Below are positions 2,118 to 22,070 of a stretch of DNA of 36,673 bases, piece by piece. The stretch lies in assembly GCA_012837925.1 (NCBI GenBank), contig DUQE01000123.1, forward strand, positions 1-36,673. The letters are read 5' to 3'. The stretch is from Bacillota bacterium (GTDB lineage: Bacteria; Bacillota; Limnochordia; Darwinibacteriales; Darwinibacteriaceae). The notes under the pieces are model-generated. The model made no database searches. It had not been told where the DNA came from and saw only the letters and a list, made by a program, of their open reading frames with translations. Each line of letters starts with the position of its first letter. Positions within the stretch are counted from its first letter, which is position 1. Made by a program: the position numbers and the translations under genes.

Positions 2118-2227
2118 AGTTCGAAATAAGGTGAGTTTGAGAACCGCGGTCCGTAAGGTTCCACGGTTCTTCTTATGTGTAGACTGGTGAAATGCTATCA
2201 TTTATTGATCTGAGGTGTCGAAGTAGG

Positions 2228-4915
2228 ATGAAAAGGTTATGGACAGGCATAGTGGTAAGCATGCTATTCGTCGCAATTCTCATGGGAAGTGTCCCAGTGG
2301 GTGCAAGTGAGTACCTGCTTGGCGTAGGTGACGTTTTGCGAATTTCTGTCTGGGGTCACTCCGATCTCACGACAGAAGTGGCCGTTCGCCCAGATGGCTA
2401 TATTACCTTCCCCTTAGTAGGCGATCACTGGGCTGTTGACAAAACGCCACGCCAACTGACCGCGGAACTGCAGGAGATCTTGACGGACTTCGTTGTTGAA
2501 CCGCAGGTTACGATCATTGTTAGTCAGTTTCGTACACTTCAGGTACAGGTGCTCGGTGAAGTTCGCTCCACCGGATACTATCAACTGAGAGCAGGCTCCA
2601 GGCTTATGGATGTTCTAGCTTTGGCCGGAGGTCCGAACCGTACGGCCGATTTGAGTCGTGTCACTATCACTCGTTATGTGCACGATGAACTCGGACGAGA
2701 AGAGACTGAAGTCATGCAGGTCGCCCTGAATCAGTTTGTTGAAGCAGGAAGCTTGGCTGATAATCCTTTGATCTCAAGTGGTGACTTGATTTTTGTCCCC
2801 GCTTCAGGTCGAGCAACCATTTTCGGCGATGTTCGTGTTCCAACCAGTTATGATTTGGGCAGTGGCCTTGATATCTTAGATTTGCTCGCCTTAGCTGGAG
2901 GTGCTTTGGACTCTGCAGATCTGGAACGTGTCGTGATCACTAGCCAAACAGACGGTGATCCGGTTGAACAGGTGGTCAATGTACAGGACTTCATGGCCGG
3001 TCGCAGCAAACCTGTCACGATTCGGCCAAATGACGTGGTCTTTGTACCGAAGAAACAGCAGGTTATGGTCCTGGGTGCAGTTCGTAGCCCTGGCATTTAT
3101 ACTCTACATAGTGAAGCACATTTGATTGATATTTTGGCTAGAGCGGGAGGAGTTTTGCCCTCCGGTGATGCTTCCACGGTGGCCATCACTCGCAGGGGAG
3201 ATTCTGAACAAGAGATCATGGTCGTGAATGCAGAACCAGGTTTAAAAGGACAACCAGGGGGCGATAACCCTCGTTTGGTCGCCGACGATCTCATTTTTGT
3301 GCCTGACGGCTACCAAAACGCCCTGGTGCTTGGATATGTTCGCGCTCCAGGTTCGTATGCGGTCCGTGAACACACAAGGCTGCTTGACCTTTTGGCACAG
3401 GCCGGCGGAGCTACAGAACGTGCAGATGAGCAGTTTACTTTAACCCGCCATGGTGAAGTTAAGACGATTGACTTAGGCGCCTTGGAACGTCTGGGTTTAC
3501 AGAATGAAAAGGTGGAACCAGGCGATGTAATCTATGTGCCTGAAGGCAAGAGACAGATCTTGGTTCTTGGTGAGGTGCGTAGTCCAGGCTATCACCAGTT
3601 CCGACCTGGCGATCGCATTTTAGATGCCATCGGACTAGCAGGTGGACTCACAGCTAACGCTCTCCAGGAAGAGGTATCCTTGAGCCGTCAAACGCCTGAG
3701 GGAACGGAGATCAGCGTCATTGATTTTAGTGAACTGATGGACAACCGTTACTTGTCGGAGAATCTTCCTCTGCAGGGTGGAGATGTGATCATCGTTCCAA
3801 CAGCTGATCGCGGTGTCATAGTCCTAGGTGAGGTTCAGCGCCCCGGTTACTATCAATTCCGATCGGGCGATGGTCTACTCGATGCCATAATGTTGGCTGG
3901 CGGCTTTACCGCCAGTGCGGATGAGGAAAACGTGTCTCTAACGAGACAAATGGAAACGGGTCCAGAGATTGAGGTTATTGATTTTAGTCTGTTGATGGAA
4001 GACCGATTCCTGGCTCAGGAAAGAACGCTTAAGGGCGGCGATATTATTATGGTGCCCCGAAGCGATAGAAGTGTTCTAGTCATGGGTGAGGTACGTAGTC
4101 CCGGATACTATGTCTTCACAAAGGGTCAAACGTACATGGATATCATCGGTCGTGCCGGTGGCTTTACGGCTAATGCAGAGCCAACCAAAGTCGCCGTCAC
4201 TCGCAATACGGATGATGGAGTGATTACAGAGACTCTCAACATGGACCTGAGGACAGGTATGCAGGATAACAAACCCCTTGTTGGTGGAGAAATCATCTCG
4301 GTTCCACCGGCTTACCGCATGGTCTTAGTGTTTGGTAATGTGGTACGTAGTGGTGCTTACAACCTGCCTTCAGACGGGCGTCTGCTGGACATCCTGGCTT
4401 TGGCCGGTGGAGTTCAGTCGGTGCACGGCGATGAACGAATTGTGGTGACGCGCCAACAAGCGGAAGGAGAACAGGTATGGGAGTTTACGTACTCAGACCT
4501 TCTCACAGACCAAAGCGAGAACAATCTGCCCTTGGCGGGCGGCGACGTGATCTACGTGCCAGCTGCTAAGAACCAAATTTTGGTCCTCGGAATGGTGGCA
4601 CGTCCCGGTGTATACAGTCTTCCTCCAGGAGGACGGGTCCTGGATGCCTTAGCCATGGCAGGCGGACCCCTGGAACGGGCGGCCTTGGAGAGCGTAGGTA
4701 TTTATCGTGACGAGTCTCTCGAAGGATCAGAAATTGTGGCGATGGGTAAAGACAAGATGCTCTTCACTGGTGATGCTAGCGAGAATCCCCTCCTACGTGC
4801 TGGTGACATTGTCTATGTGCCTGAGACCCGCAAACCTGATTGGACAAAGATCTTCGGGTTCGTTGGGACGATTAGCACATTTAAGAATGCCTTATTGAAC
4901 ATTATCAGTTGGTAG
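2228..4915 (+). CDS. Wza-like polysaccharide export protein with nine SLBB repeats
   Basis: Start placed at ATG 2228 (MKRLWTGIVVSMLF signal peptide) rather than 2192. Poly_export domain YLLGVGDVLRISVWGHSDLTTEVAVRPDGYITFPLVG, then nine units of the type ILVLGEVRSPGYYQFRxGDRLLDxIxLAGG. Confidence 0.9.
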   Translation: MKRLWTGIVVSMLFVAILMGSVPVGASEYLLGVGDVLRISVWGHSDLTTEVAVRPDGYITFPLVGDHWAVDKTPRQLTAELQEILTDFVVEPQVTIIVSQFRTLQVQVLGEVRSTGYYQLRAGSRLMDVLALAGGPNRTADLSRVTITRYVHDELGREETEVMQVALNQFVEAGSLADNPLISSGDLIFVPASGRATIFGDVRVPTSYDLGSGLDILDLLALAGGALDSADLERVVITSQTDGDPVEQVVNVQDFMAGRSKPVTIRPNDVVFVPKKQQVMVLGAVRSPGIYTLHSEAHLIDILARAGGVLPSGDASTVAITRRGDSEQEIMVVNAEPGLKGQPGGDNPRLVADDLIFVPDGYQNALVLGYVRAPGSYAVREHTRLLDLLAQAGGATERADEQFTLTRHGEVKTIDLGALERLGLQNEKVEPGDVIYVPEGKRQILVLGEVRSPGYHQFRPGDRILDAIGLAGGLTANALQEEVSLSRQTPEGTEISVIDFSELMDNRYLSENLPLQGGDVIIVPTADRGVIVLGEVQRPGYYQFRSGDGLLDAIMLAGGFTASADEENVSLTRQMETGPEIEVIDFSLLMEDRFLAQERTLKGGDIIMVPRSDRSVLVMGEVRSPGYYVFTKGQTYMDIIGRAGGFTANAEPTKVAVTRNTDDGVITETLNMDLRTGMQDNKPLVGGEIISVPPAYRMVLVFGNVVRSGAYNLPSDGRLLDILALAGGVQSVHGDERIVVTRQQAEGEQVWEFTYSDLLTDQSENNLPLAGGDVIYVPAAKNQILVLGMVARPGVYSLPPGGRVLDALAMAGGPLERAALESVGIYRDESLEGSEIVAMGKDKMLFTGDASENPLLRAGDIVYVPETRKPDWTKIFGFVGTISTFKNALLNIISW

Positions 4916-4927
4916 GAGGTGACGACC

Positions 4928-6382
4928 TTGGAAATGGAAGAAATGGATCTGCGAGAGTATTGGGAGATCATTGTTAAGAAGAAATCACTTGTGGCCATCG
5001 TGTTCATCGTAACCGTCCTTGCTGTCACCATCTACAGCTTTGTAGCCACCCCCATTTATGAGGCCTTCACTACGGTGATGGTTAGGGAATCAGGGTCATC
5101 TATGCAATCAATGTTCTTTGAGGGTCTTGCTGACGGTGCTGGCGGAGGTGGGAATACGGCGCAGAACTATATACAGATCATGAAGAGTAGAACGGTCTTG
5201 GAACGCGTCGTCGAGCAGGTCGGGTCCGAGGAGATCACGGCCAAGAGCTTAGAGAAACTGATTACGATTCAACCTGTCCAGGGTAGTGACGTGCTCAAGA
5301 TCTCCATGGAGTCGCCGGATCCGGAACTTGCACAGATTACCGTAAATACTCTTACGAGCGTGTTCATGGATTGGAACAGAAGGTATCAACAGGAAGATCG
5401 CAGAACGGCGCGCGTGTTTATTGAGGCCCAGTTAGCCGCGGCCCAAGAGAACTTGACGCGGGCTGAGGAGAGGCTCAAAGAGTACAAAGAGCAGGAACGA
5501 GTCTTTTCCTTAGCTGAAGAAACCGTTGCCAAGATTGAGCAAATGGGGCTGATGGACGCTCTCTTAACGGAGATTAGGATAACTAAAGAGGAAATGGCCG
5601 AACGGATGATTAAGGTGAGGGAGAATTTGGCCAAAGAGGACGAGACGCTGATTTCGTCGACCTCCATTGGGCAGAACACCTTTGTCACCGAGTATAAGAG
5701 ACGTTTGGCGGATATAGAGATTCGTCTGTCGAGTGCAAGAGAGAAGTATACAGATCGACATCCAACGATTGTATCGTTGCTTGCTGAAAAAGAGGATATC
5801 ACCAACAAGCTTGCTGAAGAGGTTGAACGCGTAATAGGTACAGAGACAATGTCCCTCAACCCGGTTCACAGGCAATTGTACGCCACGTTAATTGACCTCG
5901 AGGTTGAAACCATGGGACTCGGTGCTCGAGAGGCAGCGTTGGTTCAGCTCATAGAAGCACAGGAGAGAGAACTTGACTTTCTACCTGCGCGCGAGTTAGA
6001 ACTGGCCAGGCTGATCCGTGATGCCAAGGTAACGGAAGAGCTGTATATACTACTTCGGACCAGGTATGAGGAAGCTCGAATTTCGGAAGCGATGCAGACC
6101 GCTGATGTGCACGTCATTGATGACGCTATCTTGCCGGAATCTCCTGTTAAGCCGCGTAAGATGTTGAATATCGCCATCGGCGTTGTTTTAGGAACCTTCT
6201 TAGGTGTAGGCATTGCCTTCCTTGCTGAGTTCGTAGATAACACATTGAAGACAAAGGACGATGTGGAGCGCTTATTAGGGATCCCTGTCCTTGGTCAGAT
6301 TCCAGACTTTGACCTAGTTGATAGTAATGGTGGTCAGAAAAAACTATTCCAGAGGAACAAGGGCGGTGGGTTTAGTGCGTAG
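4928..6382 (+). CDS. Polysaccharide co-polymerase / chain-length determinant (Wzz/CapA-like)
   Basis: AGGAGG 8 nt before TTG 4928. N- and C-terminal TM segments around coiled coil, with a typical C-terminal segment PESPVKPRKMLNIAIGVVLGTFLGVGIAFLAEFVDNTLKTKDDVERLLGIPVLGQIP. Confidence 0.88.
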   Translation: MEMEEMDLREYWEIIVKKKSLVAIVFIVTVLAVTIYSFVATPIYEAFTTVMVRESGSSMQSMFFEGLADGAGGGGNTAQNYIQIMKSRTVLERVVEQVGSEEITAKSLEKLITIQPVQGSDVLKISMESPDPELAQITVNTLTSVFMDWNRRYQQEDRRTARVFIEAQLAAAQENLTRAEERLKEYKEQERVFSLAEETVAKIEQMGLMDALLTEIRITKEEMAERMIKVRENLAKEDETLISSTSIGQNTFVTEYKRRLADIEIRLSSAREKYTDRHPTIVSLLAEKEDITNKLAEEVERVIGTETMSLNPVHRQLYATLIDLEVETMGLGAREAALVQLIEAQERELDFLPARELELARLIRDAKVTEELYILLRTRYEEARISEAMQTADVHVIDDAILPESPVKPRKMLNIAIGVVLGTFLGVGIAFLAEFVDNTLKTKDDVERLLGIPVLGQIPDFDLVDSNGGQKKLFQRNKGGGFSA

Positions 6383-7094
6383 GTTTAGGAAGAAAAGTCA
6401 GAAGAAAGAACGCCCACTCATCGTCCACGGTGACCCAAAGGCAGTTGGCAGTGAAGCGTTTCGGACTTTGCGTACGAATCTTCAATTTACCAGTCCGGAC
6501 AAGGAACTTAAGAGCATTCTGCTCACAAGTGTAGGTCCTGGCGATGGAAAGTCGACTGTGTCGTCTAATCTCGCCGTGGCCTGGGCTCAATCGGGCCAAC
6601 GAGTGGCGTTGGTCGGTTGCGATCTGAGAAAACCTGTGTTGCACAGAATCTTCTCGATTCCTAACTCTCCAGGTTTGACAGGACACCTTACCGGTATGGC
6701 CTCTCTGGAGGAGGTAGTAATCCCCATTAAGCAGGTGCCTAATTTAGACGTAATCCCATCAGGTCCAGTTCCGCCCAACCCAGCCGAGCTTCTTCAGTCC
6801 AAGGCTATGAATAGCGTTGTTGAAGAACTTGAGGCGAAGTATGACATGGTCATTTTTGACGGAGCACCGGTCATTGCGGTGACAGACGCGGCTGTGATGG
6901 GGAACAAGGTTGACGGCACGGTGCTCGTGATTCGGGCCCATGAAGTGCCTAGGGACGTAGCCCTCCATGCCAAGACTCTCCTCGATCAAGCTAACGCAAG
7001 AATACTGGGAGTTGTTCTTAATGGAGTGCGTCCTCAGGACCAGAGAAACTATCAATATTACTATTATTATGATGATGCGGAGCGAGCTGAATGA
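6375..7094 (+). CDS. CpsD/CapB-family tyrosine-protein kinase (BY-kinase)
   Basis: Walker A-like SVGPGDGKSTVSSNLA, Walker A' VALVGCDLRKP, Walker B MVIFDGAPV, and C-terminal tyrosine cluster RNYQYYYYYDDAERAE. Probable GTG start at 6375. Confidence 0.88.
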   Translation: MRRFRKKSQKKERPLIVHGDPKAVGSEAFRTLRTNLQFTSPDKELKSILLTSVGPGDGKSTVSSNLAVAWAQSGQRVALVGCDLRKPVLHRIFSIPNSPGLTGHLTGMASLEEVVIPIKQVPNLDVIPSGPVPPNPAELLQSKAMNSVVEELEAKYDMVIFDGAPVIAVTDAAVMGNKVDGTVLVIRAHEVPRDVALHAKTLLDQANARILGVVLNGVRPQDQRNYQYYYYYDDAERAE

Positions 7095-7858
7095 TTGATT
7101 TACACACCCATATTCTCCCTGGTGTTGATGATGGAGCAACGGACCTTGAGATGGCGCTGGCTATGGGCCGTTTTGCTTCTGAGGGGGGTATTACTACTAT
7201 CGCTGCGACTCCACACTTTTATGAGATCCCCACGTGGTCTTTGGTGAAGCAGAAAGTCGAAGAGTTACAGAACGAGTTTCGTAACGCTCAGATCCCTGTG
7301 GATATTGTACCAGGAGCAGAACTCTTGATGGATATGGGTATCATGGATATGGAGGCAAGGGACATTCCCACCTATGGTGATCAAGGGAAGTTTTGTCTGA
7401 TCGAGTTTCCTCTCCAGCAAGTTCCCATGTATGCAGAACAGGTTCTCTTTAATCTGCAGACCAAGGGGATTACCCCCATTATTGCACACCCAGAACGCTA
7501 TGGATCCGTTGTGGAAAATCCCAATTTGGCTCTGGGATGGCTACGCCAAGGATGCCTCGTCCAGATGAACTCCGGCAGTATCTTGGGACGTTTTGGATCC
7601 GCTGTTAAGGAGACTGCAAAGATCATGCTGACCTCGAATATGGTGCAGCTGGTGGCGAGCGATGGCCACGGCAGCGATCGGAGGAGGTTGAACCTGCCAG
7701 AGGCCTTTGATGCCTTGGTGGAGATCGTGGGGGCGTCTAGGGCGAGGGAGTTGGTGGAGACCAATCCACGAAGCATTTTGAACGGAGACTTCCAGCTCAA
7801 GGTGGAGCCAGTAGAATATCGAAAACGAAGACGTTCCTTCTTTTCCCGCTTTGCATAG
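7091..7858 (+). CDS. CpsB/CapC-type (YwqE-like) tyrosine-protein phosphatase, PHP family
   Basis: MIDLHTHILPGVDDGA metal-binding start, PIIAHPERY, ASDGHG; ATGA overlap with the kinase gene. Confidence 0.9.
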   Translation: MIDLHTHILPGVDDGATDLEMALAMGRFASEGGITTIAATPHFYEIPTWSLVKQKVEELQNEFRNAQIPVDIVPGAELLMDMGIMDMEARDIPTYGDQGKFCLIEFPLQQVPMYAEQVLFNLQTKGITPIIAHPERYGSVVENPNLALGWLRQGCLVQMNSGSILGRFGSAVKETAKIMLTSNMVQLVASDGHGSDRRRLNLPEAFDALVEIVGASRARELVETNPRSILNGDFQLKVEPVEYRKRRRSFFSRFA

Positions 7859-8348
7859 AAGTATTACAGGTTGGCACCCTATTGGAAGGGGAATTACAAT
7901 ATTGATCCAATGGGCTATTGTTGGTGTTTATGTTCTAGCCATGTTTTTGTTTGCGGGTCAGGATGCGTCTAGTGCAGGCTACACCAGTAGTCTACTGGCA
8001 CGGTGGCTTCCGCACCTAAGTGCTGCTGAACTCAGGCAGCTTGTTTTTCTGGCTCGTAAGGCTGTGCATGTTGTCGCATATGCAGTCTTGACACTGATTG
8101 TGTATCTTGCAGCACGCCGGACGAAGGGACTGCGTCGTGTTGCTCTTCCTTTTGCGGGAGGCTTTGCCTTCATTGTTGCTATGGCTGATGAGAAGTATCA
8201 GAGTCGATTGCTTCATCGCACCGGGACTGTAAACGACGTCCTCATTGATGCCCTCGGTATTGGTGTAACGGTGCTCGGTTTATGGGTTATGATAAGGATT
8301 AAGAGACAAAACAAGGAGGTCGTTGAAGATGTTGAGGACAAACGTTGA
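7851..8348 (+). CDS. VanZ-like family membrane protein
   Basis: Hydrophobic segments with LFAGQDAS, KAVHVVAYAVLTL and DEKYQS...RTGTVNDVLIDALGI. Exact start uncertain (TTG 7851 or an internal codon). Confidence 0.75.
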   Translation: MHRSITGWHPIGRGITILIQWAIVGVYVLAMFLFAGQDASSAGYTSSLLARWLPHLSAAELRQLVFLARKAVHVVAYAVLTLIVYLAARRTKGLRRVALPFAGGFAFIVAMADEKYQSRLLHRTGTVNDVLIDALGIGVTVLGLWVMIRIKRQNKEVVEDVEDKR

Positions 8349-9210
8349 AAAACTCGTTAAACTCTCGGTGCAGGGACAGATTACACCTCCCTTACAAAGA
8401 GGAGCCTACAGGGTAGATCGCGAAGGGGTCCCCTTTGTACTGCCTGGTACTGGAGGAATCACTTACAATGTGAAAGTAGGTCACTCCGCGTTCGGTTGGG
8501 CTGGAGACCATGTAGAACCTTGCGTTTCGACCGCGGCTACCATAGACGAACGTGCTAGCCTAAAGAACCAGGCTTATAATACACTAGCCTGTGTCGGTAA
8601 TGAGGCGGTTGTCATCTCGGGCGATGCTAAAGGAGCAAAAGGCGTTGTGACGGGAACCCATGGCGGGATTGAACACGTCATTATCGACTTTGCCGATGAC
8701 GATCTGGAGAAAATGGTAATCGAGGACAAAGTACTCGTGAAGTCGTTTGGACAAGGACTACAACTCTTAGACTATCCGGGCATCACCGTTCGCAACCTCG
8801 ATCCTAATCTTTTGGGTAAACTGGAGATTAAAGAAGAAAGCGGTAAGCTTGTGGTTCCGGTTGCAGCAAAGATTCCAGCAAGGCTAATGGGATCTGGACT
8901 CGGTAGCCCGTCTACTGCTTCAGGTGACTATGATATTACGACAACGGACCAAGAAGAAATCAAAGCCCTGGGGATTGACCAATTAAAATTTGGTGATCTG
9001 GTGGCTCTGGAGGATTCCGACAATCGCTTCGGACGGAGCTATCGTCGTGGAGCTATTTCAGTAGGCGTCATCGTTCATTCCGATTGTTTGTTGGCTGGTC
9101 ACGGACCTGGAGTTACGACTCTGCTTACAGCTATTGATGGAAGCCTCGATGTAATCGTCGACCCTGAGGCCAATATCGGTCGGATTCTCGGTATCGGTTG
9201 TTATCGTTAA
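8329..9210 (+). CDS. DUF4438 domain-containing protein
   Basis: ATG 8329 with AAGGAGGT upstream. Family-like GTGGITYNVKVGHSAFGWAGDHVEPCVS and C-terminal HSDCLLAGHGPGVTTLLT. Confidence 0.75.
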   Translation: MLRTNVEKLVKLSVQGQITPPLQRGAYRVDREGVPFVLPGTGGITYNVKVGHSAFGWAGDHVEPCVSTAATIDERASLKNQAYNTLACVGNEAVVISGDAKGAKGVVTGTHGGIEHVIIDFADDDLEKMVIEDKVLVKSFGQGLQLLDYPGITVRNLDPNLLGKLEIKEESGKLVVPVAAKIPARLMGSGLGSPSTASGDYDITTTDQEEIKALGIDQLKFGDLVALEDSDNRFGRSYRRGAISVGVIVHSDCLLAGHGPGVTTLLTAIDGSLDVIVDPEANIGRILGIGCYR

Positions 9211-12079: not shown

Positions 12080-12784
12080 ATGAAACGCAAATTAGGGTTA
12101 TTGGTACTCGTAGCATTGCTTCTTGTTGGATGTTCCAGCTATGAGAGGGTGCAGATACCCCCCAAGGTCAGTGTTGGAGGCAGTAATACGGTAGCAGTGT
12201 TGTTCTTGGACAACTTTACTGACGACTATGCGATTCCACACGAGTTGGAGCAGCAAATCATACGTAATCTTTCCGCATACTACAGAGTGATTAGCCCAGA
12301 AGAAGCGGAATGGGCCTTGGTTCGTCTAGGCCTGCTCAGGGGGCAATCACCTAATCGGGATGAAGCTATACGACTTGGTCAAATGCTCGGAGTGGACGCC
12401 TTGGTTATGGGCGAGGTATCGGCCTACTACGCCCCCATTACGCAAATGCAGCCTTACATGGCGAAGGAACGAGAAGAAAAGGGTGTCAAAGGCTATGAGT
12501 GGGGTATTGACCAGAACACTAGAGTGATGGTGACACTGAACGGCCGCGTGATGGATACTCGTTCTGGAAATGTCATTCATAGACTCAGGGCAGAAGGAGA
12601 AAGCTCAACGACGACGAAAAAGACTATTGGGTGGTATCGCGTTGGCGATAGACCCGGTTTCTGGGATACGCCGGCTCCACATAAGAACGACATCTCTTAC
12701 GTAAGAGAGTCAGCCGTCCGGCAGGCTGCGAGCCAGTTCACCCAAGATTTGATGCCCACGTATAAATGGGTAAAGGTTGAGTAG
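12080..12784 (+). CDS. Lipoprotein with a periplasmic TolB-N/CsgG-like domain
   Basis: Signal peptide with lipobox LLLVGC|SS; body NTVAVLFLDNFTDDYAIPHELEQQIIRNLSAYYRVISPEEAEWALV. Start ATG 12080 or GTG 12062. Confidence 0.6.
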   Translation: MKRKLGLLVLVALLLVGCSSYERVQIPPKVSVGGSNTVAVLFLDNFTDDYAIPHELEQQIIRNLSAYYRVISPEEAEWALVRLGLLRGQSPNRDEAIRLGQMLGVDALVMGEVSAYYAPITQMQPYMAKEREEKGVKGYEWGIDQNTRVMVTLNGRVMDTRSGNVIHRLRAEGESSTTTKKTIGWYRVGDRPGFWDTPAPHKNDISYVRESAVRQAASQFTQDLMPTYKWVKVE

Positions 12785-14200: not shown

Positions 14201-14227
14201 GCAGGGTGAAGGCACCCTGCTTTTTTT
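14201..14227 (+). terminator. Intrinsic terminator of metK
   Basis: GCAGGGTGAAGGCACCCTGC followed by TTTTTTT. Confidence 0.9.
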
Positions 14228-14253: not shown

Positions 14254-14282
14254 TTGACAGAAAAGTTTGCGCATTATATAAT
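14254..14282 (+). promoter_or_regulatory. Sigma-A-type promoter with perfect consensus hexamers
   Basis: TTGACA (14254-14259), 17-nt spacer, TATAAT (14277-14282); 35 nt upstream of ATG 14317. Confidence 0.9.
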
Positions 14283-14316
14283 CTACTCAGGGTCTATCCT
14301 CCGAAGGAGGAAATCA

Positions 14317-14775
14317 ATGGTCAGAAATCATTTCTTCGTAGGAGTTCTCTGTGTAACGGTGCTGCTTGCTTTGACAACCATAGCCCAAGCATCTGGTACG
14401 GTAACGTTTCAAATTGAAGTCTTGCCGGGCTTAAGCGTATCCAGCCCGGATCTTCTGGTGTTTGATCCTGTTGCACCCGGTCAGTCGGATCATCAGGATC
14501 TCAACATCACTGTGTGGTCAAACGTAACCTGGGAGCTTTCAGTACAAGCGGTAGGCTATGATGTGGAGGGCGGACTTCAGGGAACTATTGACGTCGCTAC
14601 TCCTGGAGGCTGGGTGGAGCTTACGAACGAGAGCAGTGTCATTCGCGAGAATCAATCTCCAACTGGGCCCACAGGTGTTACGTTGCTGACGCCGTTCCGG
14701 TTCATAGGGAGCTACGAAGACGTTCCTGGTACATATTCCTTCCAGGTCGAGTTCACAGTGGTGGCTGCGTTATGA
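14317..14775 (+). CDS. Small exported beta-rich protein, candidate subunit of the cassette
   Basis: AAGGAGG before ATG 14317; signal peptide MVRNHFFVGVLCVTVLLALTTIAQA; mature part GTVTFQIEVLPGLSVSSPDLLVFDPVAPG... dominated by beta-type alternation. Confidence 0.6.
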   Translation: MVRNHFFVGVLCVTVLLALTTIAQASGTVTFQIEVLPGLSVSSPDLLVFDPVAPGQSDHQDLNITVWSNVTWELSVQAVGYDVEGGLQGTIDVATPGGWVELTNESSVIRENQSPTGPTGVTLLTPFRFIGSYEDVPGTYSFQVEFTVVAAL

Positions 14776-15467
14776 TAGGGGCGTTGAAATGGATCGGCAT
14801 CGTCATGGTCGTACTCTTCTTGCCTTGGGGCAATGCTCAGGCCATGGTGTCTGTCTCGCCAGTGATTGTTGAAGCTGTAGGAGTGGCGGAGGGCCAAACC
14901 TTTGAAGTCCTCTGCCAGAATTGGGGGGATCAGCCCATTGAGATGCAGCTATCCCTTGCTCTCTTTGATCAGAGCGAGACAGGAGGGGTAGTCTTTCTCG
15001 AAGACCCAGAAGCAGTACATAGAGCCTCGGGTTTTCTGACGTTGCATACAGACGCACTCTCTCTGGATCCGAATGGGGAAGACGTAGTCCGAGTGGAGCT
15101 GACCGATAATAGTTTTGACAATCTTTACGCCGTTCTTTTTGTAAAACCAAGGCAGGTGGGAGTCCAAACGCGTTTCGCGGTATTGTTCTTGCTCTCCACT
15201 TCGGTCAACAAACTAGCGAACATGACAGTTTCTTCATGGGTGCAGCAAGAAGACGCTTTGACGCTGACAGTGGAGAACCACGGACTCAGGCATGGATTGT
15301 GGGAAGGCGAAGTCCACCTTTATGACGCATCTGACCAAGTTGGTGAGAAACGTCAGATCACAAGCGGTGTAGTTCTGGCTGGCCGCAGTCGGGGTGTGCA
15401 GGTCCCCCTGCCATCATGGGTGCGACGTGTAGAAGTCTTTTCTGACTTGTCAGGGCAACAACGATGA
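14772..15467 (+). CDS. Exported Ig-like protein resembling PapD-type pilus chaperones or DUF916-like proteins
   Basis: ATGA overlap with the upstream gene; signal peptide ending NAQA; VSVSPVIVEAVGVAEGQTFEVLCQNWGDQPIEMQLSL ... LSLDPNGEDVVRVELTD ... LYAVLFVKPR. Confidence 0.5.
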   Translation: MIGALKWIGIVMVVLFLPWGNAQAMVSVSPVIVEAVGVAEGQTFEVLCQNWGDQPIEMQLSLALFDQSETGGVVFLEDPEAVHRASGFLTLHTDALSLDPNGEDVVRVELTDNSFDNLYAVLFVKPRQVGVQTRFAVLFLLSTSVNKLANMTVSSWVQQEDALTLTVENHGLRHGLWEGEVHLYDASDQVGEKRQITSGVVLAGRSRGVQVPLPSWVRRVEVFSDLSGQQR

Positions 15468-17554
15468 AAGCGTCTCTGTTGGTCACCGGATTAGTCCTAT
15501 TGCTCAGCTGCCATTGCATGGCGGAGCAGCCGGTTATTCGGCATGTGGTGGATGAGCCGAGCGCAAAATCGATCATATACCAATCTTTCGATCTGTGGAT
15601 CGACGCCATTGGATCATGGTGTTTGCGAGGGCAGAATTCAAGTGGGTTGGCATTTCTGGACCGCGATGGGAGTATCGTTGAAGAGGGAAAACTCATCTGC
15701 GGCGATGGTTCGCAGGACTTGTCCCATACGATGGAAGTACATGTGGAGCCGGTGACATTGGGTCCAGGTACACATAGACTGGACATGGAACTCGTACTAG
15801 AGGGGGCCCAAGGTATCTTGGGCCTTCCGCTTGCCTCTGGTACCTGGATTTTGCCCTTAAACAGCGAACATGTTTCGGTACAGACGAGCGATGATGAAAG
15901 GACATTTCTTTCGTCTGGACAGTGGTTTCTTCTGCAATCGGAAGACCGAATCTTCTACGATGGTCAGGAGATATGGAGTCACTCTCCACCTGTGGAGGCC
16001 GCGGGGATACTCGACGTACAATCGCAAAGTGAATTGTGGTGGGACGAAGAACCACTTGGCTTGGAAACTGGTGAACGGCGAACCTTTCGAATTTATCTGA
16101 CAGGCCCCAGCTTTGGCGGCGAACTTGTCCTCCGGTCGAATGACTATCTCCATATTGATGGAGCCGCTTGGTTCCTGGAGGGGCGGCAACTAACAAGTAC
16201 GGTGACGCCCGACGGTACAGTTACACTTCGCATTCCAGTCTTACCCCCAGGTGTTCACAAGCTGCATGGAACCTTGCAGGCCCTTCTGCCCCCTCCGTCA
16301 GGTCAAGGAGAGCTTTGGGCGCTATGGCAAGGTACAATAGCCCATCGCATAGTGCGCATTGACAGAAGCTGGTTTGACCACGGAGGTATCCAGAGGATTC
16401 AAGTGGATACGACTTCTCCCTTAATCATGCCCAGCGGGCAGATCCGCAGTATGCATGGCAGAGGAGAGGTGTCTGCCAAGGAGGGAAGACTAAACGCAGT
16501 AGTCCCGGTGAGCAATCCCGGACAACCGATTTGGACCGGTCTTCCTCTGAGCGACAGTATAGTATGGGCCCCCGAAATCGAGTCGAGTGACCCTGAGGAT
16601 TTATTCTTGCCTGTCCTTTTGTGGGATGACGGATTGTCTTGGCGTTTGATCACGAGTTCGGGTCCTTATTTCTGCGATATTACAGCGGAGCGACAGCTGG
16701 CGTCCCTTAGGGGGAGACATGGATCCGTACGCCTAGAGGCCTCGATGCGAAACGAGAAAGTCGTCATTACACATGGTTGGAATGGCGCCTGGAGTGCAGA
16801 CGGATGGCGTTGGTGGGAGAGTGCTGAGGTTGTCAAAGGGGCCTACGGGCAAGGAAACTGGCTCTGGACCATTGGTGTACCTCGAGGGTCCGGCAACTTG
16901 CCGAGCCTCAAATTGCGCTATGAAAGAGACGGCGTTCTTCTACAGATGTCTAAGGATGACGTACGGTTGAAGCTTTCCTCTAAGATGCTGTCCTGGGGAA
17001 TAGGTCTACAGTCGCAGACTTTATGGATGGAGCGGCTTGAACCCCACCTGCGTCTTGAAATACGTCCCAGGCACCTCAAGTTTGACTATTGCTTAACGGA
17101 TGTGGGCGATGTGAGGTTACAGTGGAACATGGGGCGGAGCATTCAAGTCGACGTAACGGCCGATCCCTGGGATGCATACCTCCGCTTCGAGTCAAACCAA
17201 GTTCCCGAATGGGGATTGCGCTACCAAAAGTCTTCTTCCCAGGGTCGCTTCCTCTCTGCAACCAAAGGGGCCTTGCAGGTGAAGAACCATACCGTTATGG
17301 TTGAAGCCCGTGGCGAAATGGGTTATGTTTTGTCTCCCTGGTGCACACCTTATGTTGAGACGGGTCTTGTTGCCAGTATCTATGGGCCAGGAGGCCAGGT
17401 CCTCACTCACTGGACCTATGGGGGAGGATTGATTCTCAAACCCTTGCCTCAGATTGTGGCAGCGGTGGGGTGGAACAGTGATCAGAAGTGGCATGTAAAA
17501 GCCGGTGTCGTTGTACCTTTTGTGGGCAGGAAAACGCAAGTACGTTCCGAATAG
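15464..17554 (+). CDS. Large exported protein (696 aa) with beta-rich domains and a probable C-terminal outer-membrane barrel
   Basis: ATGA-type overlap with the upstream gene; signal peptide MKASLLVTGLVLLLSCHCMA; C-terminal 200 aa alternates polar/hydrophobic residues with aromatic girdles (VRLQWNMGRSIQVDVTADPWDAYLRFESN...GWNSDQKWHVKAGVVVPF). Confidence 0.5.
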   Translation: MKASLLVTGLVLLLSCHCMAEQPVIRHVVDEPSAKSIIYQSFDLWIDAIGSWCLRGQNSSGLAFLDRDGSIVEEGKLICGDGSQDLSHTMEVHVEPVTLGPGTHRLDMELVLEGAQGILGLPLASGTWILPLNSEHVSVQTSDDERTFLSSGQWFLLQSEDRIFYDGQEIWSHSPPVEAAGILDVQSQSELWWDEEPLGLETGERRTFRIYLTGPSFGGELVLRSNDYLHIDGAAWFLEGRQLTSTVTPDGTVTLRIPVLPPGVHKLHGTLQALLPPPSGQGELWALWQGTIAHRIVRIDRSWFDHGGIQRIQVDTTSPLIMPSGQIRSMHGRGEVSAKEGRLNAVVPVSNPGQPIWTGLPLSDSIVWAPEIESSDPEDLFLPVLLWDDGLSWRLITSSGPYFCDITAERQLASLRGRHGSVRLEASMRNEKVVITHGWNGAWSADGWRWWESAEVVKGAYGQGNWLWTIGVPRGSGNLPSLKLRYERDGVLLQMSKDDVRLKLSSKMLSWGIGLQSQTLWMERLEPHLRLEIRPRHLKFDYCLTDVGDVRLQWNMGRSIQVDVTADPWDAYLRFESNQVPEWGLRYQKSSSQGRFLSATKGALQVKNHTVMVEARGEMGYVLSPWCTPYVETGLVASIYGPGGQVLTHWTYGGGLILKPLPQIVAAVGWNSDQKWHVKAGVVVPFVGRKTQVRSE

Positions 17555-17597: not shown

Positions 17598-19328
17598 ATG
17601 CTCAGGGAAGCAGTGCATCATATAGCCCACGGAAACTACGCCTACCCAGTGTCAGAAGACACGTTGCGAGTCATGCTCCGCACGGCGAAGGGCGATATGA
17701 AGAGAGTCAGTGTGCTCTACCAAGACCGCTACGGAGGTTCGGAACCCTTTGTGGCCACCATGGAGGTTGTGGCGGAGGATGAGTTATTTTCCTTCTATCA
17801 GGTAGATCTCAAGCTTGATACTAAACGTTTCGGTTATGTCTTCTTGCTCGATGATGGGAAGAATCAGGTTTTTTATACCGAGAAGGGTTTCTTCGACGAT
17901 GTTCCGCCCAACACCCAGTTTCACTACCCCTACATAGCAATTCGGGATCTATGGGAGCCACCAAAATGGGCGCAGGGCGCAGTCGTCTATCAGATCTTTC
18001 CTGAACGCTTTGCCAACGGTGATCCGACCAACGATCCGTCAAACGTGGAGCCTTGGGATGCGCAGCCAACCGTGACGAGTCAAAAGGGCGGCGATCTCCA
18101 GGGAGTGATTGATCGTTTTGGACATCTTGTCGATCTGGGAGTTGATGTGATTTACTTCACTCCGATTTTTGAGGCGCCAAGCAATCACAAGTATGATACG
18201 GTAGACTATTACCGGATTGATCCGCATTTTGGCGATGAGGACACAGTACGAAAGCTCATCGAACTCGCCCATGAAAATGGCATCAAGGTAGTCTTTGACG
18301 CCGTATTTAACCACAGCGGTTATGGTTTCTTTGCATTCCAAGACGTACTTGAACATGGCGAAGACTCGCCCTATGCGCATTGGTTTAACATTGACAGCTT
18401 CCCGGTACAAACGGAACCGCCGAACTACGAGACATTTGCCAACCAGATCGCGACTATGCCCAAACTCATGACCTGTCACGATGATGTCAAAGAGTATTTC
18501 CTAGAAGTGGGCCGGTACTGGGTGAGGGAGTTTGGTATCGATGGCTGGCGTCTCGACGTCGCCAATGAGATCGATCACCACTTCTGGCGCGAGTTTAGAG
18601 AGGCGGTCAAGTCAGAGAATCCTGATGCGCTAATTGTGGGCGAACTATGGCATGAAGCCAGCGAGTGGGTACGAGGAGACCAGTTTGATTCTGTAATGAA
18701 CTATTCCTTCCAGTATGCATGCCTTGACTTTTTTGCCAAGAACACGATTCGTGCACGTGCTTTCGCTAATCGCCTGGCCAAGGTTCAGGTCAACCACACG
18801 CAAGCCGTAAACCTAAGCATGTTCAATCTCCTGGACTCCCATGATACCGAGAGATTCTTGACTACCTGTGGGGGTAATGTACAGAAAATGGCTTTGGCAG
18901 TAGCCTTCCAACTAACCTATGAAGGTGCGCCCATGATCTACTACGGCGACGAGGTAGGCATGGAAGGGTTCAACGATCCCGATTGTCGGCGTGGTATGAT
19001 TTGGGATCCTAACGAGCAAAACGAAGATCTATTAGCCTGGTATCGCAGACTCATAGCCTTGCGGAGAGAACATCCCGTATTGCGCTTAGGGCACTGTAAG
19101 ACAGTGTGGGCTGATAGTGCGACTAACATCTACGGGTTCGTGCGTTTCAACGAGGGAGAACAGGTTCTTGTCCTCCTAAATAATCAAGCCAAACCACAAA
19201 GCGTTGACTTGACAGTGGTTGCCTGGCCTGTGGCTGTGCCGAAACAGGTCCGAGATTTACTAACAGACGAGAAGTTTGCCTTGGGTGAGGTTCTACTTGA
19301 ACCCTACGGCGCAAGAATTCTAAGCTAG
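17598..19328 (+). CDS. GH13 alpha-glycosidase (neopullulanase / cyclomaltodextrinase type), no signal peptide seen
   Basis: Regions VVFDAVFNHSG, DGWRLDVANEID, VGELWHEA and LLDSHDTERF; preceded by a beta-rich N-terminal domain. Confidence 0.92.
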   Translation: MLREAVHHIAHGNYAYPVSEDTLRVMLRTAKGDMKRVSVLYQDRYGGSEPFVATMEVVAEDELFSFYQVDLKLDTKRFGYVFLLDDGKNQVFYTEKGFFDDVPPNTQFHYPYIAIRDLWEPPKWAQGAVVYQIFPERFANGDPTNDPSNVEPWDAQPTVTSQKGGDLQGVIDRFGHLVDLGVDVIYFTPIFEAPSNHKYDTVDYYRIDPHFGDEDTVRKLIELAHENGIKVVFDAVFNHSGYGFFAFQDVLEHGEDSPYAHWFNIDSFPVQTEPPNYETFANQIATMPKLMTCHDDVKEYFLEVGRYWVREFGIDGWRLDVANEIDHHFWREFREAVKSENPDALIVGELWHEASEWVRGDQFDSVMNYSFQYACLDFFAKNTIRARAFANRLAKVQVNHTQAVNLSMFNLLDSHDTERFLTTCGGNVQKMALAVAFQLTYEGAPMIYYGDEVGMEGFNDPDCRRGMIWDPNEQNEDLLAWYRRLIALRREHPVLRLGHCKTVWADSATNIYGFVRFNEGEQVLVLLNNQAKPQSVDLTVVAWPVAVPKQVRDLLTDEKFALGEVLLEPYGARILS

Positions 19329-22041: not shown

Positions 22042-22070
22042 ATTATATGGATGATGTACGACCTTGTCAA
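22042..22070 (-). promoter_or_regulatory. Sigma-A-type promoter with perfect consensus hexamers, driving the metNIQ riboswitch
   Basis: Minus strand: TTGACA - 17 nt - TATAAT, just upstream of the riboswitch. Confidence 0.9.

Follow-up and report, generated by a model that had tools for sequence, protein, structure and literature searches.

A three-gene exported cassette beside metK in diderm Bacillota: a candidate strand-donor system for an abundant surface protein

Three exported proteins are encoded in close succession after metK in contig DUQE01000123.1 of a Darwinibacteriaceae genome (Bacillota; Limnochordia; GCA_012837925.1), from which we analysed a stretch of 36,673 nucleotides, here called the window. 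The first protein, A, is small and beta-rich; the second, B, is predicted to consist of two immunoglobulin-like (Ig) domains; and the third, C, is large and seems to end in something like an outer-membrane barrel. The succession raises an obvious question: is this a divergent chaperone-usher pathway, with A as the pilin, B as its chaperone, and C as a reduced usher through whose pore A is threaded, or is it something else? Our best reading is that the cassette works like the WxL clusters of Lactobacillales, and like chaperone-usher systems, yet belongs to neither. We do not present it as a member of either, because in both cases tested features of membership are missing.

An earlier, sequence-only reading had described three head-to-tail genes with start/stop overlaps and a signal peptide on each. 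That description holds: four-base ATGA overlaps join A to B (14772–14775) and B to C (15464–15467), and all three translated regions begin with hydrophobic N-terminal signal sequences (Table 1). Its left edge, 14254, turns out to be the −35 box of a promoter, however; gene A itself starts at the ATG at 14317. The same reading had the cassette isolated between the metK terminator and a GH13 gene. The terminator is real, but none is predicted in the 43-bp gap between C and the GH13 gene, and so the latter, a conserved neighbor of the cassette within the family (16 of the tabulated loci), may be cotranscribed with it. Judged by sequence, the cassette is insulated on its upstream side, then, and not clearly on its downstream side. 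Farther upstream in the window are exopolysaccharide-type genes (2192–9210), among them one for a Wzz/GNVR protein and one for a Poly_export protein of 907 aa that is unusually rich in SLBB stretches, with nine of them. Upstream of metK lies a gene for a CsgG-like lipoprotein (12080–12784; PF03783, E 1.5e-4), whose position is conserved in the family. CsgG is the export pore for curli, and a link between this lipoprotein and the cassette is conceivable.

Table 1. Features of the cassette, its surroundings, and a second locus in the same genome
Feature	Coordinates	Strand	Description	Evidence
metK intrinsic terminator	14201..14220	+	upstream boundary of the cassette	8-pair stem, then T run
Promoter of A	14254..14282	+	TTGACA-N17-TATAAT; −35 hexamer begins at 14254	12/12 match to consensus
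Shine-Dalgarno of A	14304..14310	+	AAGGAGG	sequence; leader kept in relatives
Gene A	14317..14775	+	152-aa exported beta-rich protein; proposed client/subunit	ORF, alignments of relatives
Gene B	14772..15467	+	231-aa two-Ig periplasmic protein; proposed carrier/chaperone of A	AF2, Foldseek, profiles
Gene C	15464..17554	+	696-aa exported multidomain protein; proposed outer-membrane anchor/platform	ORF, AF2
C 22–125	15527..15838	+	A-like domain	hhalign with A profile, 82–88%
C 190–376	16031..16591	+	Ig-like and transthyretin-like domains	hhalign, 97% over C 193–376
C 379–683	16598..17512	+	about 27 consecutive beta strands, outer-membrane-barrel-like	AF2, profile, Foldseek, strand alternation
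GH13 gene	17598..19328	+	possibly cotranscribed	43 bp from C
Second locus, L103 (G000:C94)	3093–8367	−	B-like protein, secretin, small exported proteins	

The promoter itself is informative. Perfect matches to the consensus (12/12) also precede ten A genes, besides that of the window, within the same bacterial order, and matches of 11/12 precede six more; for the most part, promoters in relatives of A lie some 34 nt ahead of the ATG. Perfect promoters number just 13 across 335 kb of A loci, and 12 of these stand directly before A. Conservation of so complete a signal suggests that A is expressed at a very high level, as would be expected of a structural surface protein. Within the window, the one other perfect TTGACA-N16-18-TATAAT is found at 22070 on the minus strand, directed toward the MetN-MetI-MetQ genes. 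Just past the −10 box of the A promoter, near the expected start of transcription, comes a leader motif, CAGGGTCTATC (14285–14300), that is conserved in much of the family and has a possible role in regulation or in mRNA stability.

How widely is the arrangement kept? Profile searches of a class sample of 73 genomes found A in 63, B in 59, and C in 31, the last almost entirely within the order of the window (29/31, the other two matches being marginal). A and B occur together in 59 of the genomes; four have A only, ten have neither, and none has B without A (Fisher p 1.6e-9, a value uncorrected for the shared descent that makes the genomes non-independent). A precedes B wherever a class locus includes upstream sequence (36 of 36): the gene-order table has A no more than two genes upstream of B at 31 of them, and profile searches put A directly upstream of B at the other five (G021, G028, G031, G068, G072). 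metK lies upstream of the cassette at 28 of the 34 loci that have at least two upstream genes, and B is followed by C, or by a larger protein, at 36 of 42. The larger proteins, of about 900–1,500 aa, stand in place of C in other orders. Usually they begin with an A-like domain; their middles match residues 193–376 of C (hhalign, 97%), the Ig-like and transthyretin-like region being common to both; and their C-termini match the barrel of C weakly. One genus (g11, L073–L075) keeps B, with A, at a metK/DegS locus and, apart from G032, has no C that profiles detect; C is evidently not obligatory for A and B, therefore. In a wider sample of the phylum, which takes in members of the class, B-like proteins are encoded by 64 of 399 genomes, and outside the class an A-like gene sits beside B at about half of 20 inspected loci. 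The genes do travel together, then—A and B in the class, and all three in the order—and with their order kept so widely, the arrangement reflects more than chance.

B is the member of the trio for which comparisons are most fruitful. Its AF2 model (pLDDT 92.4) comprises two Ig domains, for which the best PDB match by Foldseek is the chaperone CfaA (4ncd; E 4e-9, TM 0.55–0.60). WxLIP structures from Enterococcus faecium, 9i25 and 9i1y, match at E ~1e-8, and further matches include CsuC, EcpB, FimC, YadV, CupB2 and Caf1M. The model and its matches support a two-Ig fold of the PapD/WxLIP (DUF916) type, the kind of fold that had been proposed for B from its sequence and that a structure search was to look for. 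Profile comparisons point more to one side of this pairing than to the other. The 71-member B family aligns over its full length with WxLIP at 75% (two sequences) or 91% (four sequences) by hhalign, versus 43% with the PapD family of K-12, 40% with EcpB, and at most 6.5% with pilins, ushers, or the domains of A and C. WxLIP rather than PapD is thus the probable closer relative of B. The window's own B belongs to no Pfam or NCBIfam family, and misses the thresholds of both PapD_N and WxLIP_PGBD; just one B relative reaches Pfam WxLIP_PGBD, at 0.011. At one locus, though (G095; L156:2234-3760), an A-like gene is followed by a gene for a 303-aa protein that is matched by the B profile and by Pfam WxLIP_PGBD alike, and which in sequence terms is a bridge between the two families.

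Residues that are invariant or nearly so in B—P30, R134, A136, N169, H174 and R207—are not those that mark chaperones of chaperone-usher pathways. Non-classical chaperones have a proline in domain 1 (Pro59 in CsuC, Pro60 in EcpB), and an arginine at position 89 in both (PMC4654587). In an approximate alignment, the columns for B 90–96, where the invariant chaperone-usher proline would be sought, are proline in at most 7 of 33 sequences; the conserved proline of the family is at B 100 (29/33), later than the chaperone-usher position. Strand F1 of B (117–124) has no conserved basic residue to stand for the F1 arginine, and the conserved arginines, R134 and R207, sit outside this strand. The missing proline and arginine argue against B as the chaperone of a chaperone-usher pathway.

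A is more elusive. In alignments of 19 and 35 relatives, the signal peptide is followed by a beta-prone extension, then by a conserved VxSNxxWxL segment and a PTGxxG loop, and the protein closes with a predicted strand at its C-terminus. Scans of Pfam and NCBIfam assign A to no family, nor B or C, Pfam scans of all members of the A and B alignments are likewise empty, and profiles of A, and of B, find nothing significant among PDB sequences. Two identities that seemed possible for A were discarded. A match of 50% to pilins came with the signal peptides, and mature sequences score 0.2% against K-12 pilins; a match of 18% to WxL domains had the same source, and fell to <1% against the WxL profile. 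A is a putative incomplete Ig domain, and plausibly a fibre subunit.

C appears to be built from several small beta domains followed by about 27 strands (AF2, pLDDT 84.8). The first of its domains resembles A, and the rest of C scores at most 1% against the A profile (hhalign). An A-like domain in C, and in the larger proteins that replace it, is what one would expect if B serves both A and C. For the C-terminal strands, the profile of C finds designed transmembrane barrels at E 2.8e-4 (6x9z) and gives a weak match to OmpX/Ail. Foldseek returns porins, which come first, and ushers, PapC and FimD included, at E 2e-5 and above, with TM-scores of 0.14–0.18 and large rmsd, and strand alternation is strongly amphipathic over residues 481–576. 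C of the window ends in RKTQVRSE; some of its relatives end in F or W. Model, profile and fold matches together support a C-terminal beta sheet of the outer-membrane-barrel kind, much as had been suggested from the sequence; with TM-scores so low, closure of the barrel and the size of any pore are beyond what they can support.

The usher question can be answered more directly. That no FimD/usher signature was visible had been remarked from the start, and we find none either: C scores 0.1–0.4% against K-12 ushers in profile comparisons, and neither Usher (PF00577) nor PapD_N has a match above cut-off in any of the 73 class genomes. PapC and FimD do figure among the Foldseek matches of C, but porins score as well against it as ushers do. 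The order of domains is different, too: in C the small domains precede the barrel, and the A-like domain stands where an usher has its N-terminal domain.

All 73 class genomes encode Omp85/BamA, and so the host, as had been surmised, is a diderm with an outer membrane. A second locus in the same genome (G000:C94; Table 1) resembles the cassette in that a B-like Ig protein is found together with an outer-membrane protein and with small exported ones. It differs in that the B-like protein is 507 aa long and the outer-membrane partner, encoded next, is a 404-aa secretin of the PilQ/GspD type (PF00263). Two small exported proteins are encoded upstream, and the locus also specifies a 398-aa protein that ends in GVSFHF; similar sets are present in relatives (L082, L083, L104, L105). 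Taken together, C and the secretin loci imply that B-like proteins accompany two unrelated kinds of outer-membrane protein, and the second locus is possibly a secretin-based sister system of the cassette.

What might the cassette do? We consider it somewhat more probable than the contrary that it is a strand-donor system, by which an abundant surface protein, A, is mounted on the outer membrane. The strong promoter would supply A in quantity, and signal peptides would bring all three proteins to the periplasm. There, B would bind A and, probably, the A-like domain at the N-terminus of C: it would donate to them one of its edge strands, the likeliest being the conserved G1 strand, RxAVLFLLS, and would keep the bound A soluble. 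The C-terminal barrel would seat C in the outer membrane, and its A-like domain would provide a point of attachment for A, and perhaps a platform for export. A might also polymerise, each subunit handing its N-terminal extension to the next. The binding of A by B, the donation of a strand, the anchoring by C, and the export and polymerisation of A are steps that we infer from several observations. B matches donor-strand chaperones and WxLIP in fold, and profiles tie it to WxLIP and, more weakly, to PapD and EcpB. A is encoded directly upstream of B, and no class genome has B alone. The perfect, conserved promoter suggests that A is a major structural protein, C has a barrel-like C-terminus, and all 73 class genomes possess Omp85. 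Counting against this strand-donor reading are the lack of any profile relationship between A and either pilins or WxL domains, the low TM-scores of C, and the genus that keeps A and B with no C that profiles detect.

The alternative that survives best, although we think it rather unlikely, is a non-polymeric complex, a diderm version of those of WxL clusters, in which A, B and C are fixed together for adhesion or wall-binding, and B stays in the finished structure. Both readings have B binding A; they differ on whether A then leaves B and polymerises. In Lactobacillales, small WxL, large WxL and WxLIP proteins (the last PF06030, DUF916-DUF3324) have been proposed to form a complex, and the commonest make-up of their clusters is a small client, a large protein with a client domain, and a two-Ig partner (PMC10599100). 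The cassette has much the same composition, a B-type protein beside a small client and a larger partner that includes a client-like domain, and B is nearest WxLIP by profile (91% over the full length), matches its solved structures, and is bridged to it by the G095 gene. A W-x-L is conserved in all 18 A proteins of the window's order. A has only this one, however, instead of the dual motif: no second W-x-L occurs in the last 25 residues of A in members of the order, and by profile A does not match WxL domains. Nor does B have the C-terminal membrane helix of WxLIP, or its Pfam match; the highest 19-residue Kyte-Doolittle mean in the last 50 residues is 0.61 for B of the window, the maximum among 33 relatives is 1.51, and the last elements of the AF2 model are a strand and a short tail. 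C ends like a barrel, with its client-like domain at the N-terminus, and the host has an outer membrane. Finally, that the very strong promoter stands ahead of A only also counts against a fixed complex, for it suggests that A is made in excess of B and C.

Improbable, in our estimation, is a role as envelope tether or scaffold, in which A and B would bridge outer-membrane C to the wall or the periplasm and so stabilize the envelope. A single copy conserved beside metK through the whole class, a strong promoter, and genomes that bear Omp85 are all in keeping with such a role. But in scans of Pfam and NCBIfam none of the three proteins shows a domain for binding the wall, whether SLH, OmpA-like or another; the absence of both A and B from ten of the 73 genomes means that they are not indispensable to the envelope; and the fold of B points to the binding of a client, instead. 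Least probable of all, and to our minds very much so, is the divergent chaperone-usher pathway with which we began: the order subunit, chaperone, outer-membrane protein and the fold of B are the parts of the likeness drawn by the sequence-only reading that stand, and the proposed analogy fails on the profiles and domain order of C, on the hallmarks missing from B, and on the genus that retains A and B without C.

Comparison with non-classical chaperone-usher systems (archaic CsuC-CsuD; alternative CfaA and EcpB) tells a similar story. The cassette shares with them the two-Ig fold of B, the gene order, and the alternating hydrophobic G1 strand; it departs from them in having no usher, in a B without the conserved proline and arginine, and in an A unlike pilins. 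Archaic systems have been listed only from proteobacteria, cyanobacteria and Deinococcus-Thermus (PMC4654587). The TasA/TapA fibres of Bacillus subtilis resemble the cassette, as we read it, in that a secreted beta protein of Bacillota is reported to assemble together with an accessory partner through the complementation of strands (PMC9674648, PMC10151520). They are unlike it in that A matches TasA-like proteins at noise level only (E 3.8). We know of no counterparts of B and C in the TasA/TapA system.

A bolder form of the strand-donor reading, which we find possible although doubtful, is that the cassette represents a third branch of donor-strand assembly at the cell surface, distributed across a class of diderm Bacillota. 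In it, B would mount or polymerise A with no usher, and different proteins could serve as the outer-membrane partner: the C barrel here, its relatives of 1,000–1,500 aa in other orders, and a secretin at the paralogous locus. Were this so, the cassette would be an evolutionary link between the WxL complexes of Gram-positive bacteria and the chaperone-usher pili of Gram-negative ones.

Our searches of the open-access literature turned up no account of such a system for this bacterial group. If diderm Bacillota do have a conserved carrier of the PapD/WxLIP type, with a client and an outer-membrane partner of its own, it would join two systems so far treated separately, and the cassette would offer a testable model for strand-donor assembly without an usher. 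For the organisms themselves, digester bacteria known mostly from metagenomes, it points to A as a probable major protein of the cell surface.
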